Below are positions 6,904 to 19,749 of a stretch of 20,255 bases of DNA, piece after piece (positions within the stretch are counted from its first letter, which is position 1; the number at the start of each line of letters is the position of its first letter). Source of the DNA: a virus; the IMG/VR virus record IMGVR_UViG_3300044644_000337, positions 1 through 20,255 of that record; one strand, written 5' to 3'. The notes below the pieces were generated by a model. It was given only the letters and a program-made list of their open reading frames with translations, did not search any database and was not told the DNA's origin. Made by a program: the position numbers and the translations under genes.

Positions 6904-6975
6904 TCACCTATAGTTTAACCGGCAGAACCCCGGGTTTTGACCCCGGTAGTCCTCGTTCGAACCGAGGTAGGTGAT
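6904..6975 (+). tRNA. tRNA-Gln (anticodon UUG)
   Basis: A complete cloverleaf: acceptor TCACCTA/TAGGTGA (7 bp), D arm GTTT-AACCGGCA-GAAC, anticodon arm CCGGG-TTTTGAC-CCCGG with anticodon TTG, variable TAGT, T arm CCTCG-TTCGAAC-CGAGG. U1:A72 is characteristic of glutamine tRNAs. No CCA is encoded (CTA follows the discriminator). It would read CAA codons, supplementing the host during phage translation or replacing the disrupted tRNA around it. Confidence 0.88.
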
Positions 6976-6979
6976 CTAA

Positions 6980-13815: not shown

Positions 13816-14450
13816 GTGACCGGAATCCTCGCTTGTCCTGAACGGTACGCATCCTGACGATCCAGACCATCGCCCAGACGCTTCAATTGAGCAAGGGCTT
13901 CCTGATACTTCTGCTCGTAGTACTGCATCATATCGGCTTCGCCCTTGAGATAAGTGTACGCCTCGCGGAGCGATCCGTAGAGCAACACGGTCTCAAAGTT
14001 GTCCCCAAGCCACGATGTTGAATTAGTAACAATAGAAACCGGGTAATAGTAGTAATGCAGTTCGGCCGTGTACGCAACGTCTGGGGTCGGCCCAAGAATC
14101 ATGCTGGAGTTATTCCAGATAGCGTAGTACTTAGGCTTCCCATACGAGTTGGGTGGTGGATACGCAGCGCGGATGTAGTTCACATCCTTGTTTAGTAGGT
14201 ACTCGTACTCACCCGTAGTCGGGTCAATCACCGCAAGCGAGAACGTCGAGAGCCAATCAGACGGCAGGGAGAAATACTGAAATTGCGCCGTCATCGTACC
14301 GGTGACGTTCTTACGAATCGCCGGGATCTGGACTGAGTTATAAATCCGCTCTTCAGCCAACTGCACAAACGTAGGGATATTCGCTACAAAAGACGTTTCC
14401 GTGCTTTCGCAGTAATCCTGAATCAACGTTGAGAGTTGACTGTAGTTCAC
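13812..14450 (-). CDS. Head-tail adaptor, SU10-adaptor-like
   Basis: 212 aa starting MNYSQLSTLIQDYCESTETS, then IPTFVQLAEERIYNSVQIPAIRKN, a beta core (YFSLPSDWLSTFSLAVIDP, YEYLLNKDVNYIRAAYP, PKYYAIWNNSSMILGPTP) and a C-terminal helical hairpin (YGSLREAYTYLKGEADMMQYYEQKYQEAL). This order matches phage adaptor proteins of the SU10 type, which form a ring under the portal and join head to tail. Complete, with no anomalies. Overlaps both neighbours by 4 bp. Confidence 0.8.
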   Translation of the reverse strand: MNYSQLSTLIQDYCESTETSFVANIPTFVQLAEERIYNSVQIPAIRKNVTGTMTAQFQYFSLPSDWLSTFSLAVIDPTTGEYEYLLNKDVNYIRAAYPPPNSYGKPKYYAIWNNSSMILGPTPDVAYTAELHYYYYPVSIVTNSTSWLGDNFETVLLYGSLREAYTYLKGEADMMQYYEQKYQEALAQLKRLGDGLDRQDAYRSGQARIPVT

Positions 14451-14644
14451 GGAGACCAGCCAGACCGGTACTTGCTGTTGTTCTCAAGATTGATCTGAGA
14501 CACGAACTTCGTGCCCTTGGTCGCAGCGCCAGCACCCTTCATTTTCATGTGGGTAACGCCCTTGTTGACATCCTTCTCAGGATAGCCATTACGACCCGTC
14601 GAATCCGTGTTCGGCCTAATCTTGCCGGGGTTCAGTTCTTTCAT
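14447..14644 (-). CDS. Small basic late protein, 65 aa
   Basis: MKELNPGKIRPNTDSTGRNG, then YPEKDVNKGVTHMKMKGAGA and TKFVSQINLENNSKYRSGWS. Basic, Gly-rich and without a clear fold, as many accessory proteins of this late block are. Its stop overlaps the adaptor start by 4 bp, so it is co-translated with a virion gene. Not assigned; a virion component is plausible. Confidence 0.6.
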   Translation of the reverse strand: MKELNPGKIRPNTDSTGRNGYPEKDVNKGVTHMKMKGAGAATKGTKFVSQINLENNSKYRSGWSP

Positions 14645-14844: not shown

Positions 14845-15219
14845 GGTCGTAACGACCGTTACCGTCCCGACTTCACCTGCCGGGGCTAAATCATTTGGGG
14901 TTAACCCGGCATCGTCTGCTCTAGCCCCTCCTACGGGAGCCCAGCCCCATTGTATCTGACGACTGCCATTTGCGCCGTCATTACCTACCGCAAAATAACT
15001 CGTATCCGGTCGTGGATTCCGCAACGCCTGCGGGTCGTCCACGGGGTACAAACCAAGCGATAATTGAGGCTGATCCGGCTCCCAACACTCCGAACATACC
15101 AAGATATTTACGTTCTTGGTCTTGATCACGAGCGACTTTAACTGCTTCAGTTTGTACTGAAACCCGCAGCGGTCGCACATGGCGATAGCGTTTTTGCCAC
15201 TGGCAAACCTGTTTGGCAT
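14842..15219 (-). CDS. Zinc-ribbon late protein with a C-terminal repeat motif
   Basis: 125 aa. The N-terminal half is a zinc ribbon: C15-D-R-C18-G-F-Q-Y-K-L, then V-C42-S-E-C45-W-E-P-D-Q-P. This is followed by LGLYPVDDPQALRNPRPDTSYF, a stretch shared by phage proteins of this kind. The last residues, AGEVGTVTVVTT, match the core of the 22-residue repeat in the protein at 12192-13094. The ATG overlaps the upstream stop by one base (TAATG). Role unknown; a structural zinc site in a virion protein is likely. Confidence 0.75.
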   Translation of the reverse strand: MPNRFASGKNAIAMCDRCGFQYKLKQLKSLVIKTKNVNILVCSECWEPDQPQLSLGLYPVDDPQALRNPRPDTSYFAVGNDGANGSRQIQWGWAPVGGARADDAGLTPNDLAPAGEVGTVTVVTT

Positions 15220-15944
15220 TAGTAGCCACCCAAGAAACTCTCACGTGGGACAAAGCGTACTGCGGCTTTCTCACGATCCTCGCCAGAAGCCAAATCCCAA
15301 GCCTCGTCATACTGAGCCTTCAAGACCTGAGTACGACCCTCTGCACCCGGAATCTTTAGCGACAGCATATAGGCCAGCCCAGCAACCATGCAGGGCAGGA
15401 AGCGGAACGGGATATCCTGACCATTAACGCCTGTACCGGGGTCAAACATACGACGCAGACGGGTGTAGTAAAGAATCCAAGTAGTGCTGTTATCGGGCTT
15501 CGGCCAGACCGTAAACTGAGGGTAAACAATTACGTTATCCGCACCCGTCGCGCCCGTGCGGCGATTAATCCAAATCTGAATCGGTCGGCCTGTCGCATTC
15601 TTGTTCGGTATTGATACGTAGGTGCTGGATGAAATACGCGAGATATTGATGTCCTGCTGATTGGTACCAGACCCAGTACGGATTACATGGTCAAGCAGGT
15701 CTACCGTATCCACCGGCAAATCATAAGTACCGACGTTGTAGGTCAAAGTGTGGGTGCCCTGCTCCAGCGTCCACAAGTTCACGCCACGATTAGCCCAGTC
15801 CATCAGAAGCAGGGCAAGACTACGCTTCGACGTACGGAAATCATAACCCGTACGCAATTCAGCCCCACAACGCTCAAAAGCCTCTTCAATAATAGTATTG
15901 AGGTCGAGGTTGAAGTCTGTCGTTGCTGTAGTTTTATCGACCAT
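15219..15944 (-). CDS. Putative tail/head-completion protein, 241 aa
   Basis: MVDKTTATTDFNLDLNTIIEEAFERCGAE, then SKRSLALLLMDWANRGVNLW, beta strands THTLTYNVGTYDLPVDTVDLLDHV and IQIWINRRT, the conserved DIPFRFLPCMVAGLAYMLSLKIPGA, and RTQVLKAQYDEAWDLASGEDRE. This is a widespread structural protein of podo-like and sipho-like aquatic phages, with a helical N-terminus and beta core like tail-adaptor proteins. Exact position in the virion is uncertain: head completion or tail tube adaptor. Complete. Confidence 0.7.
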   Translation of the reverse strand: MVDKTTATTDFNLDLNTIIEEAFERCGAELRTGYDFRTSKRSLALLLMDWANRGVNLWTLEQGTHTLTYNVGTYDLPVDTVDLLDHVIRTGSGTNQQDINISRISSSTYVSIPNKNATGRPIQIWINRRTGATGADNVIVYPQFTVWPKPDNSTTWILYYTRLRRMFDPGTGVNGQDIPFRFLPCMVAGLAYMLSLKIPGAEGRTQVLKAQYDEAWDLASGEDREKAAVRFVPRESFLGGY

Positions 15945-15962: not shown

Positions 15963-17099
15963 CTATTCAAAATTAAGGCCGAAATCAGAAGGTGAGCGAT
16001 AAGATTTAAGTGCGTCATCACTATAATCTATATTCTTCTCTTTTAAAAAGTTCATTACTGTATTCGGATCAGTAGCACCTTCCCCTACTCTGTTATACCC
16101 TTTATTGGCTGCAAGAGTGTACATAGCCGAATTTCTTTGGGCGTCGGTTATTGGGGTGTTTTTTAATTCTTCATATCTAGCGGTTGTGTTTTTATTCCTT
16201 TCTAAACGGCTTTCATAATTTTTCAATTCTTCTGGATTTATGTATTCATTGTCGCCAAATTGGACATCTGCAGTGCCATACGCACCATTAGCAAACCGGT
16301 TATAGTAGTACGGATTCTTTACCTTGCCAGCATTAGGGTCCACCCACTTAGGGCGAGGTTGCACATCAGGCTGGAGAAGCGGCTGATTACCCACCCAGCC
16401 CGGACTTTCCCCCGCCCAGCCCGGACTTCCCCCCGCCCACGCATACTTAAATGGGTCCGACGACGGCTGGTTCGCTCCCTCATCAGGAATAAACATCTGC
16501 CTAGTCCTGTCGTCGAGGCGAACATCTGTAAGCATAGAACGCCCGACATTAAAGTCCGGGTTCAATTTCATGCCCGGAGGTGGGGCGTTGGGGTCTCTAT
16601 TTCCCCCTTGAACAGCGCGCAACTGGCCGAGCAGTGCAGCAATACCGCCGCCCATACCACCGAAGCCACCCATCATTGGGTTAAAGCCGCCGAAACCGCC
16701 TAAGCCGCCCATCATGGGGTTAAAGCCGCCCATACCGCCGAAGCCGCCATAACCGCCCATCATGGGGTTAAAGCCGCCCATACCGCCGAAGCCGCCATAA
16801 CCGCCCATCATGGGGTTAAAGCCGCCCATACCACCGAAGCCGCCTAAGCCGCCCATCATGGGGTTAAAGCCGCCCATACCGCCAAAGCCGCCATAACCGC
16901 CCATCATGGGGTTAAAGCCACCCATACCACCGAAGCCGCCAAAGCCGCTGACATTAAACGGCGCACCATAGGCACCGCCAAAACCACCCATGCTGCCAAA
17001 ACCGCCTAGTCCGCCACCCATTCTGTTGCCTATCTGGGGCGCAGAGACGGCCGGAGAGGGTTTCGGCTGTAAGCCTTGTTGGGTAGATACGTTGTTCAT
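15963..17099 (-). CDS. Glycine/methionine-rich repeat protein, 378 aa
   Basis: The N-terminal 30 residues (MNNVSTQQGLQPKPSPAVSA) lead to a Gly-rich region (about residues 28-155) built of the 16-residue unit M-M-G-G-Y/L-G-G-F-G-G-M-G-G-F-N-P. A folded-looking C-terminal half follows (LRAVQGGNRDPNAPPPGM, RQMFIPDEGANQPSSD, NPYYYNRFANGAYGTAD, LKNYESRLERNKNTTARYEELK, ending SDFGLNFE). The Gly/Phe/Met repeats may be disordered or self-associating. The first part is GC-rich; the 3' 300 bases are more A/T-rich, suggesting two origins. Late virion-type neighbours suggest a particle component; not recognised. Confidence 0.75.
   Translation of the reverse strand: MNNVSTQQGLQPKPSPAVSAPQIGNRMGGGLGGFGSMGGFGGAYGAPFNVSGFGGFGGMGGFNPMMGGYGGFGGMGGFNPMMGGLGGFGGMGGFNPMMGGYGGFGGMGGFNPMMGGYGGFGGMGGFNPMMGGLGGFGGFNPMMGGFGGMGGGIAALLGQLRAVQGGNRDPNAPPPGMKLNPDFNVGRSMLTDVRLDDRTRQMFIPDEGANQPSSDPFKYAWAGGSPGWAGESPGWVGNQPLLQPDVQPRPKWVDPNAGKVKNPYYYNRFANGAYGTADVQFGDNEYINPEELKNYESRLERNKNTTARYEELKNTPITDAQRNSAMYTLAANKGYNRVGEGATDPNTVMNFLKEKNIDYSDDALKSYRSPSDFGLNFE
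16669..16947. repeat. 48-bp tandem repeat array inside the glycine-rich gene
   Basis: The marker CCCATCATGGGGTTAAA recurs at 16708, 16756, 16804, 16852 and 16900, exactly 48 bp apart. A diverged copy at 16669 sits 39 bp before the first. Units differ at only a few positions, so recent slippage or unequal crossover is likely. Each unit is in frame, so changes in copy number keep the protein open. Confidence 0.9.
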
Positions 17100-17100
17100 G

Positions 17101-17355
17101 TTACTTCTTCAGGCCACGCAGCGTTTGCGCGAGACGGGCACGTTGACCCATCTTGCCCGGAGCCTTTGCGGCTTTAGCAAGTTTAGCAGCGGGAATCTTT
17201 TGCCCCGCCTTGACGCCAAGGCTGCTACGTAGCGCACCGGGCTTTTTAATGGCTTCTTTAATCCAGCCGCCTTTCTTCAACACGCCTCGCCCTTTAAGGA
17301 CATCAGCGCGAGTTACGCGACCATCACCGGTCAAATCAGGAAAATTTTTAGCCAT
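17101..17355 (-). CDS. Small basic protein with an EF-hand/dockerin-like N-terminus
   Basis: 84 aa. MAKNFPDLTGDGRVTRADVLKGRGV carries D-x-T-G-D-G-x-V-T-x-A-D-x-L, a calcium-binding loop like those of EF-hand and dockerin repeats. The rest is lysine-rich (IKEAIKKPGALRSSLGVKAG, KLAKAAKAPGKMGQRARLAQ). AGGGG precedes the start. Repeated versions of such proteins occur in the late regions of aquatic phages. Calcium binding is an inference from one motif; basic tail suggests nucleic-acid or capsid contact. Confidence 0.65.
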   Translation of the reverse strand: MAKNFPDLTGDGRVTRADVLKGRGVLKKGGWIKEAIKKPGALRSSLGVKAGQKIPAAKLAKAAKAPGKMGQRARLAQTLRGLKK

Positions 17356-17356
17356 G

Positions 17357-17602
17357 TCACATACCCCTACGTCTGTACGGCCTTACTTTTTCTTTAACAC
17401 CCTTGGGCTGCGAGACAAACTGCTTGCCTTGGGCCTTGCCTTTCCTTTTGGCAGCGGTGGTACGGGCATACTCAGAAGGGCTGAGAGCCTTGATCGCAGC
17501 CTCTGGTAGATACCTTTCGCCCGTGTCAGAAGATCGTTTACCACTCTTCGTTCTCCACTTCTGCTGCGTCCACGCTTTAAGAGACTGTTGAGGAGCCTTC
17601 AT
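17357..17602 (-). CDS. DUF5872-like small basic protein
   Basis: ATG 17602 is chosen because it overlaps the upstream stop (ATGA); the longer frame from 17668 lies inside the neighbour. MKAPQQSLKAWTQQKWRTKS, then GERYLPEAAIKALSPSEYAR and a basic tail (AAKRKGKAQGKQFVSQPKGV). The pattern SLxxWTxQKWRTKSGxxSxxTGERYLPxxAIKAL fits DUF5872, a family of uncharacterised phage and giant-virus proteins. Strongly basic. Possibly a packaged DNA-binding protein (inference). Confidence 0.75.
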   Translation of the reverse strand: MKAPQQSLKAWTQQKWRTKSGKRSSDTGERYLPEAAIKALSPSEYARTTAAKRKGKAQGKQFVSQPKGVKEKVRPYRRRGM

Positions 17603-17895
17603 CCACGATACCCGCCGCCTTTGGCCTTGTACTGCTTCGCCAGCAACTGAGCCTTTCTTGCGCTCCACTGCCCTGCTGCAGTACCCTGTACGGCCCGGCC
17701 CTTGATTGACTCAAAGAGCCGCTTACGCATACCGGGCTTCGTATAATTTCCCGCCTCGTTCACGCGGCTCTCGCCTCCCTTGGCGTAGGTTTTTATCGGT
17801 TTCCCAGTCCCAATTACGGGTTTTTCGTCCCCCCGGCGTTTTGCTCGGGGGACTTTTTTGGGATTGATATCACCCATGCCTCGGGACGGTAGCAT
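17599..17895 (-). CDS. Basic late protein with KGGES motif, 98 aa
   Basis: Start ATG 17895 overlaps the upstream stop by one base (TAATG); ATG 17877 is an alternative. Key stretches are IGTGKPIKTYAKGGESRVNE, AGNYTKPGMRKRLFESIKG, and GQWSARKAQLLAKQYKAKGGGY. This domain recurs in small phage proteins of marine and freshwater viruses but has no known function. It has the same basic character and the K-G-G-[ST] turn as its neighbours, though its K-G-G-E-S lacks the C-terminal peptide they share. Confidence 0.7.
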   Translation of the reverse strand: MLPSRGMGDINPKKVPRAKRRGDEKPVIGTGKPIKTYAKGGESRVNEAGNYTKPGMRKRLFESIKGRAVQGTAAGQWSARKAQLLAKQYKAKGGGYRG

Positions 17896-18383
17896 TAGAC
17901 AAACTTCCCTCTGGTTTTACCTTTCTTAGCGATGCCATCACCGCGACTTGCGGAGGACTTTATTGTACCCCCTTTAGCCTTCTTCTCTTCGGCAGACTTA
18001 ACCACATATGGTTTGCCCCGCCACAAGAAAGAACCACCTTCGCCCAGTTCTTTACGCCTAATCCCATAGGCTTTCTTAAACGGCATTTCGTCAAAACTTT
18101 CAGGCTCTGGAATAATGTACGGCCCTGCCGCTTTTACATTGCCCTTGTACGGAGATCTGCCGCGTTCTTCAATCTTACGCTCGCGGAGCATTTCCTTTAC
18201 TTCGCGCTCCCATTCTGGATCACGCTTCATATCTTTTACGTCTTGAAGTCGCCCACCTTCCGTAAACTTCTTAACTCGCGGCTTAGGCGGTAACGGCAAA
18301 CGGGGCTTCTTGATAGCAGATGCGCCAAAACGCGGCATCTTCTTTTTAAACATCCCCGCCGTGTATTTAGGAATGCGATCCAT
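17895..18383 (-). CDS. Basic late protein ending in the shared DGIAKKGKT peptide, 162 aa
   Basis: MDRIPKYTAGMFKKKMPRFG, then a Pro/Lys stretch (AIKKPRLPLPPKPRVKKF), a charged helix (DMKRDPEWEREVKEMLRERK), a possibly folded middle (KAAGPYIIPEPESFDEMPFK; SFLWRGKPYVVKSAEEKK) and the tail KGGTIKSSASRGDGIAKKGK followed by TRGKFV. The tail is nearly the same as those of the next two upstream genes. No known family. Location and composition suggest a virion or assembly protein; the tail may be a sorting or binding tag (inference). Confidence 0.7.
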   Translation of the reverse strand: MDRIPKYTAGMFKKKMPRFGASAIKKPRLPLPPKPRVKKFTEGGRLQDVKDMKRDPEWEREVKEMLRERKIEERGRSPYKGNVKAAGPYIIPEPESFDEMPFKKAYGIRRKELGEGGSFLWRGKPYVVKSAEEKKAKGGTIKSSASRGDGIAKKGKTRGKFV

Positions 18384-18392
18384 AATGGAGTC

Positions 18393-18644
18393 TTAAACAA
18401 ACTTCCCGCGAGTCTTACCCTTTTTAGCAATCCCGTCAGCACGCTTGGAGGCAGAGGACTTCACAGAGCCGCCCTTTTTCATGCCGGACATGCTACGTCG
18501 CTGCGTCTTTTCGTACGCTTCGCGCATCTTCTCAGCCATATCTTCTTGGCGGGCCTGTTCAAGTGCCTCACGTTCTTTTCGTGCTGCCGTAGCCTGTGCG
18601 GAGGACCGACGCGGCCCTTGCGGACCTTTTGACATAAAGTTCAT
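18393..18644 (-). CDS. Basic coiled-coil late protein ending in the shared DGIAKKGKT peptide
   Basis: ATG 18644 overlaps the upstream stop (TAATG) and gives 83 aa; a GTG at 18650 is also in frame. MNFMSKGPQGPRRSSAQATA leads into a long charged helix (ARKEREALEQARQEDMAEKM, REAYEKTQRR) and the tail KKGGSVKSSASKRADGIAKK then GKTRGKFV. The helix is a likely coiled coil. The tail is identical to that of the 162-aa protein in its last 13 residues. Function not known. Confidence 0.7.
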   Translation of the reverse strand: MNFMSKGPQGPRRSSAQATAARKEREALEQARQEDMAEKMREAYEKTQRRSMSGMKKGGSVKSSASKRADGIAKKGKTRGKFV

Positions 18645-18877
18645 TAGCACTTCCCGCCCATCATCATTTTGACGATCTTGCCCTTAGTCTTGCCCTTCTT
18701 GGCAATACCGTCAGCGCGGCTGGAAGCAGAACCGCCCTTGGAGTAGGCCATACCGCCCATCCGCATGTTCTTCATGCCTTTCATTTCGGCCTCTTCGTGC
18801 CGAACCATGGACTTCGGGGCGCCCTTCTTTTTCATAAAGGACACTTCTTTACGCATCATCGCCTTTGACTCTTTCAT
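18644..18877 (-). CDS. Basic Met/Lys-rich late protein with the shared DGIAKKGKT peptide
   Basis: 77 aa: MKESKAMMRKEVSFMKKKGA, PKSMVRHEEAEMKGMKNMRM, then SKGGSASSRADGIAKKGKTK and a final GKIVKMMMGGKC. The shared peptide is here followed by a hydrophobic, Met-rich end and a terminal Cys. TTAGGAGCG is the ribosome-binding site. Methionine and lysine together are unusually frequent. Not a recognised family. Confidence 0.7.
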   Translation of the reverse strand: MKESKAMMRKEVSFMKKKGAPKSMVRHEEAEMKGMKNMRMGGMAYSKGGSASSRADGIAKKGKTKGKIVKMMMGGKC

Positions 18878-18904: not shown

Positions 18905-18929
18905 ATAAAAGGCTTAGCAGTTCCAAGCC
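18899..18929 (-). terminator. Weak intrinsic terminator candidate
   Basis: On the minus strand GGCTT (18929-18925) pairs with AAGCC (18915-18911) around a 9-base loop, followed by TTTTATTAATTT. The stem is only 5 bp and overlaps the end of the DUF6321 gene. It may give partial termination within the late operon. Confidence 0.35.
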
Positions 18930-19168
18930 CTCAACGATTTGTTGATCCGGCTATTCGGGTCGTTTGCCGTCTTGGCGCTCGTCAGTTTCTTCTTCATGCC
19001 TGTCATACGGGCACAGAATGACTTCTTGCGAGGCCCACCTTCCGGTTGAGGACGCTTCAGCCCCGGCTTACCCGGATTGGCACGGTTGTAAGAAGCCCTG
19101 CCTTTTGCGTTGAGTCCGCCAGCAGGGTTTTTCCCCTCTTTCCGTTGCCAAGCAGGGGTCTTAGCCAT
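18914..19168 (-). CDS. DUF6321-like small basic protein
   Basis: 84 aa: MAKTPAWQRKEGKNPAGGLN, AKGRASYNRANPGKPGLKRPQ, then KKSFCARMTGMKKKLTSAKT and ANDPNSRINKSLRAWNC. The runs W-x-R-K-E-G-K-N-P-x-GGLNAKGRASYN and S-F-C-A-R-M-x-G-M-K-K-K match DUF6321, highly conserved across unrelated aquatic viruses. Invariant-looking Cys in SFCARM and the final Cys are present. It overlaps the upstream gene by 8 bp. The strong conservation implies an exacting role, still unknown. Confidence 0.8.
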   Translation of the reverse strand: MAKTPAWQRKEGKNPAGGLNAKGRASYNRANPGKPGLKRPQPEGGPRKKSFCARMTGMKKKLTSAKTANDPNSRINKSLRAWNC

Positions 19169-19515: not shown

Positions 19516-19749
19516 TTACGGGACGAGACTGGCGTACAGACCGATGTAAAGCGTGGTGCTGCCGATGAGAACCGGGATGCGACCTGCCTGAACCGATACC
19601 GTGCCCGACACCGAACCCGTGGTCAGTTTGGTGCTGCCAATCGTGAGCGTGGTGCAAAGCAGGTTGGTGATGACGGCAGAATCGCCAGCGATAGAGCCCT
19701 CAAAGCCGTTGTCAGACTTAACCGGGCCAGAAAATGTAGTACGACTCAT
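19516..19749 (-). CDS. Conserved virion-type protein (MSRTTFSGPV family), 77 aa
   Basis: Starts MSRTTFSGPVKSDNGFEGSI, then GDSAVITNLLCTTLTIGSTK, LTTGSVSGTVSVQAGRIPVL and IGSTTLYIGLYASLVP. Almost all beta with Ser/Thr/Gly repeats and few charges. GAGG is 8 bases upstream of the ATG. The opening MSRTTFSGPV is a recurrent start of small structural proteins in phages with similar late blocks. Role in the particle unknown. Confidence 0.75.
   Translation of the reverse strand: MSRTTFSGPVKSDNGFEGSIAGDSAVITNLLCTTLTIGSTKLTTGSVSGTVSVQAGRIPVLIGSTTLYIGLYASLVP

Follow-up and report, generated by a model that had tools for sequence, protein, structure and literature searches.

Why should three consecutive small proteins of one virus, unlike one another over most of their length, end in the same peptide? 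The question is raised by a 20,255-base virus record (the window), for which an earlier note had described the shared ending as a portable tag kept by selection, and had offered capsid targeting, a scaffold or DNA-binding motif, and protease processing as its possible functions. We followed the peptide through viral sequence collections, asked where its genes lie, and weighed what such a tag might do.

The three tagged proteins and their surroundings

The three proteins, read from their translations, are all encoded on the minus strand. Protein A (17895..18383, 162 aa) ends in KGGTIKSSASRGDGIAKKGKTRGKFV (17898..17975) followed by a stop codon, and protein B (18393..18644, 83 aa, with its ATG at 18644) ends likewise in KGGSVKSSASKRADGIAKKGKTRGKFV (18396..18476) and a stop. 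Protein C (18644..18877, 77 aa) carries the peptide as part of KGGSASSRADGIAKKGKTKGKIVKMMMGGKC (18647..18739); its terminus reads KGGSASSRADGIAKKGKTKGKIV-KMMMGGKC, so that eight residues, omitted in the earlier note, follow the shared peptide before the stop. The consensus of the three endings is KGGxxxSSASxRADGIAxRGKTxGKxV/C, and a motif search of the record returns these three copies only. The stop codon of C overlaps the start codon of B in the sequence TAATG. Relatives of A at loci L111 and L060 retain its first ∼40 residues (MDRIPKYTAGMFKKKMPRFGA...) and the tag, but not the middle. When the tags are compared codon by codon, identical codons, synonymous differences, and replacements number 5, 10, and 1 between A and B; 4, 9, and 3 between A and C; and 7, 7, and 2 between B and C, which bears out the claim that the copies differ at many synonymous positions.

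No function had been assigned to the peptide, and our searches agree with this. A, B, and C have no significant match in Pfam, PHROGs, or NCBIfam, and together with seven other tagged proteins they return nothing from PADLOC. A PDB profile search with the tag gave nothing relevant, only chance citrate-lyase fragments, and no description of the tag was found in the open-access literature (PMC).

The usual neighbor of the tagged cluster is a DUF6321 protein, encoded here at 18914..19168 (minus strand; PF19846, E = 1.5e-19), whose gene adjoins the cluster in 72 of the 74 tagged loci that include an adaptor. Direct fusions of DUF6321 to the tag at loci L096 and L115 show that an already established, conserved protein of the head region can acquire it; a literature search on DUF6321 found nothing relevant. 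A cement-like small protein (19516..19749, minus strand) resembles the cement protein of DSL-LC04 at its N-terminus (TTFSGPV). The head–tail adaptor (15219..15944, minus strand) is 96% identical to that of the tag-clade locus L060, which encodes a major capsid protein (MCP) and three tags; the window's own MCP gene probably lies beyond the contig's right end. Two small basic proteins without a tag are encoded on the minus strand at 17599..17895 (phrog_17747, its start codon overlapping the stop of A in TAATG) and 17357..17668 (phrog_14910). We also note, on the minus strand, a 378-aa protein (15963-17099) encoded between the tagged cluster and the adaptor, which contains glycine-rich GGFGGMGGFNPMMGGYG-type repeats and has no match in Pfam or PHROGs, and a small protein (17101-17355) that starts with an EF-hand-like loop, DLTGDGRVTRAD; a protein of locus L004 joins the same loop to the tag. 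A tRNA-Gln (TTG) gene lies on the plus strand at 6904-6976.

Distribution and conservation of the tag

The tag is shared far beyond chance. A back-translated degenerate DNA pattern matched at least 120 stretches of viral contigs in IMG/VR, with one to five tagged ORFs per locus. Among the matches listed, 225 complete ORFs contain the motif, which lies exactly 3 residues from the C-terminal end in 182; another 38 end 10-14 residues beyond it, as C does, the longer extensions being often GGKC-like or GGGMAKGKK-like. Random mid-protein positions, which the earlier note had named as evidence against its reading, are not the pattern seen, as only 5 of these 225 ORFs run past the motif by more than 14 residues. 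Among the matches listed there are 240 unique tagged proteins, which reduce to 215 bodies in 111 body clusters, and the description of the peptide as a portable C-terminal tag holds. In the GTDB genome collection a narrower pattern matched one MAG contig, and tblastn of two tag versions against 50,697 phage records gave no match except a spurious one (E = 7) in MW202803; the tag is effectively absent from both sets.

The tags are under strong purifying selection, as the earlier note had proposed, with a pN of 0.17 between tags against a pS of 0.73. Among homologous bodies the median identity is 0.22 where their tags reach 0.86, and tags on unrelated bodies are still 0.79 identical. Since the first set was selected by motif, which fixes some residues by construction, invariance was measured again by profile on MCP-anchored intervals, some loci of which had also been found by motif. 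In these MCP–adaptor intervals D, G, and T are invariant in 157/157 tags, the second G in 156/157, and K in 154/157. Over the tagged proteins from every locus, cysteine is nearly restricted to the tag, where it makes up 172 of 6,720 residues and occurs at the DG[I/C]A position and as the final residue; the bodies have 3 in 22,802.

The copies were also said not to stem from a fresh duplication. Codons for the same residue agree within a locus at a rate of 0.49, where codon usage predicts 0.35 and the rate between loci is 0.42. These values reject fresh duplication as a general account and point to a mostly independent history of the copies; the claim needs the amendment that some recent copying has taken place. 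A different account takes the conserved 3′ ends to be chiefly joints for recombination, where short stretches of homologous DNA let the bodies be shuffled and the peptide itself does little. The relatives of A, which share both ends and differ in the middle, would fit such an account, as would the 133 of 272 tag stop codons that overlap an ATG. A pS of 0.73, however, is near saturation and leaves little exact homology, while the amino acids are held, and we regard this account as very improbable.

Head-gene neighborhood, capsid clade, and bodies

In long records the gene order runs from terminase through a portal-size protein, a GroES-like protein, an acidic scaffold-like protein, and two small proteins to the MCP, after which come the cement-like and DUF6321 genes, the tagged cluster, the adaptor, and the tail genes, with some genes missing or uncalled in individual records. 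Pfam supports the terminase, capsid, and adaptor assignments and, weakly, that of GroES (G004 proteins); the scaffold-like protein is probably a scaffold, judged by its position and acidity. The MCP matches Phage_capsid_4 and Mu-like gpT, families that we take to have the HK97 fold. Across 330 MCP-bearing loci, wherever both flanking genes are present, every one of the 145 strict tags is encoded in the MCP–adaptor interval and in the same orientation; none precedes the MCP, follows the adaptor, or occurs on the opposite strand. In each of 20 longer records the matches are grouped in a single cluster that spans no more than about 4 kb.

The tag also follows the capsid phylogeny. Mapped on the MCP tree, the tag label requires 13 changes versus 58 when shuffled, and the best split places 72 tagged and 12 strict-tag-free MCPs inside one clade and 3 tagged and 98 tag-free MCPs outside it. 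For each of the 12 exceptions inside, the locus contains relaxed tags or a related motif, RGxGxAxKG, at some point. When intervals are chosen by MCP, tags occur in 31/38 in this clade versus 3/94 elsewhere, a comparison that is descriptive since the clade was defined with tag labels. Common ancestry alone could produce the concentration.

The head module of the tag-clade phages is shared with several cultured phages. Relatives found through the scaffold-like protein or the MCP are HTVC023P, HTVC027P, CRP-901/902, 023Pt_psg01, Pag-Yong1, and DSL-LC04, the last a metagenome assembly; they are without a strict tag, and no tag-like match was found in the scanned regions of five such relatives. As a separate observation, OQ594354.1, OL906435.1, and PP438419.1 have an identical length of 65,014 bases and identical match scores under the claimed hosts Synechococcus, Planktothrix, and Planktothricoides, and are possibly one phage or a contaminant.

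Tag identity is 0.807 within one genome versus 0.789 between genomes. Genome-specific coevolution of the tag, tested in this way, is thus very weak, and gives little indication of a partner particular to each genome. Such weak coevolution would suit a partner outside the phage, and one could suppose that the tag directs its proteins to a host component, serving as a signal for localization, degradation, or protection from degradation and playing no part in the particle; the often hydrophobic or Cys termini would agree. Confinement to the head interval and concentration in one capsid clade are unexpected for a host signal, to which we assign a low probability.

Related motifs extend the observation beyond the strict tag. 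Among tag-clade phages with enough downstream sequence, 39/41 encode a small related-motif protein (e.g., KIRGTGAATKGVMARGPMA) within 2.5 kb after the adaptor, often at ∼0.6 kb; in the window, a small protein downstream of the adaptor (14447..14644, minus strand) has the related GAGAATKG motif, a second motif class. In the cultured Pelagibacter phage HTVC023P, the unrelated gp32 and gp51 both end in RGxGAAxRGxxFxGVx. The likeness to the tag is that two unrelated proteins of one phage have a common C-terminal peptide; the motif, however, is of a different class without DG..KGKT, and HTVC023P falls outside the tag clade. These related motifs suggest a broader class of C-terminal labels.

The bodies to which the tag is attached are hypervariable, basic, and nearly cysteine-free, with a median length of 87 aa. 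Those tested against Pfam, PHROGs, NCBIfam, and PADLOC belong to no family, except for the KQH domain of body cluster 1, and contain no enzyme family and no receptor-binding or Ig-like domain. The KQH domain occupies the N-terminal ∼45 aa of the longer members of cluster 1 and matches two PHROGs annotated as virion structural. It is also N-terminal in phiKZ165.1, in a BUCT555 protein encoded between terminase and MCP, and in 121Q gp51 and CBB_322, whose N-termini match the KQH profile with E of about 1e-16 to 1e-23. CBB_322 has been detected in virions with 30 peptides (PMC5259590), as has phAPEC6 gp161c (28.98 kDa) with 6 peptides (PMC7247149); from size and gene order, the latter is probably the counterpart of 121Q gp51. 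The jumbo-phage proteins CBB_322, 121Q gp51, and phiKZ165.1 thus resemble cluster 1 in their N-terminal domain and differ from it in having no C-terminal tag. This link to the virion covers one body family only. Protein C is a shortened member of that family without the KQH domain; where it aligns with a tagged KQH protein, the two are 72% identical. In two AlphaFold2 models built from shallow alignments, confidence is low over the tag; the sole region predicted with moderate confidence is the KQH domain in one of them.

Some bodies contain recurrent modules. One of ∼31 residues, FxxAFxxARxxGxxxFxWxGKxYxT, occurs repeatedly in the tagged bodies of cluster 0 (e.g., L006 and L047) and is found also in the unrelated crAss-like cr107_1, in microviruses, and in RHEph01 gp034, the gene of which lies between portal and scaffold. 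A GKxY module in protein A was not accepted, its best profile domain scoring 3.7 bits, and a VTKE...LRDYLN module had no match in phage records.

Small, variable, disordered bodies encoded beside a cement-like protein might also suggest display, with the tag anchoring the proteins outside the capsid in the manner of decoration or whisker anchors. The absence of receptor-binding and Ig-like domains from the bodies tested and their median length of 87 aa speak against such an arrangement, which we think has only a small chance of being right.

A proposed C-terminal docking peptide and its counterparts

A constant C-terminal peptide, changing bodies, and genes beside the capsid gene together suggest a label for loading the capsid. 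The reading that we prefer, and to which we give an even chance, is that the tag is a C-terminal capsid-targeting or docking peptide of an uncultured clade of aquatic phages. It would recruit small proteins, hypervariable and for the most part disordered, to the inside or the surface of the head during assembly, and one constant binding site, presumably on the capsid shell or the scaffold, would load many changing cargo proteins. The tagged proteins would then be virion components recruited by the tag, and their changing bodies may act in infection or counter-defense, as T4 internal proteins do. Among the functions that the earlier note had offered, capsid targeting is best supported on the grounds of the MCP–adaptor position, the concentration in one capsid clade, and the body family with a domain in common with proteins detected in virions by mass spectrometry. 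DNA binding retains a low probability, and protease processing gained no positive support. The T4 prohead protease cleaves after an xxE-type site; no glutamate at a conserved position was found in the tag, and, unlike in T4, no head-protease family was recognized among nine G004 proteins tested.

The strongest competing idea is a cationic, glycine-rich tail that binds nucleic acid or phosphate, with packaged DNA or host RNA as its target and the tagged proteins as condensing or host-takeover factors. The mean net charge of the 27-residue tag is about +5.6, the bodies are basic too, and GIAQRGKT fits the Walker A pattern (GxxxxGKT) by inspection, its K and T being near-invariant. Yet the invariant aspartate, the fixed distance from the C-terminus, and the position-limited K/R exchange suggest specific docking; the residues after GKT are usually too few for a P-loop fold, and the PDB profile search returned nothing relevant. 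We consider this tail unlikely. A P-loop NTPase proper was rejected, the GxxxxGKT pattern notwithstanding, on length and for want of a predicted fold.

Two known systems resemble the proposed docking peptide in part. T4 internal proteins are diverse, with only their targeting sequence conserved (PMC3012670), and the T4 capsid-targeting sequence of the internal proteins and Alt is, like the tag, a short conserved terminal peptide on several diverse head proteins (PMC3012670, PMC5694885). One peptide on diverse bodies is therefore common to both. The T4 sequence, however, is N-terminal, 10-20 residues long, and removed by the prohead protease, whereas the tag is C-terminal, about 25 residues long, and has no evident cleavage site, and its packaging is what we infer. 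Encapsulin cargo-loading peptides (compare PMC7355545, PMC8346489) are C-terminal and load cargo into an HK97-fold shell; the tag shares the C-terminal position and the nearby HK97-type shell gene. They differ from the tag in sequence, in having folded enzymes as cargoes, of which the tagged bodies tested give no sign, and in serving a compartment of the cell where the tag would serve a phage head.

A more far-reaching version, which we put forward tentatively and hold to be doubtful, is an uncleaved C-terminal code for capsid loading: the peptide would be read by the heads of phages in an abundant aquatic clade, rapidly changing disordered proteins would be packaged and injected, and the KIRGTGAATKG and RGxGAAxRG classes would mark further proteins, including some in a cultured pelagiphage. 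HTVC023P is a cultured system that offers a test. Internal and ejected proteins of phages are hard to recognize because they evolve fast, and a label in the sequence would let a motif search find hundreds of uncharacterized proteins of abundant aquatic phages. The tag would also serve as a packaging tag in work on phage heads. It would suggest, finally, that the pairing of a constant targeting peptide with changing cargo, as in T4, evolved anew in the opposite polarity.
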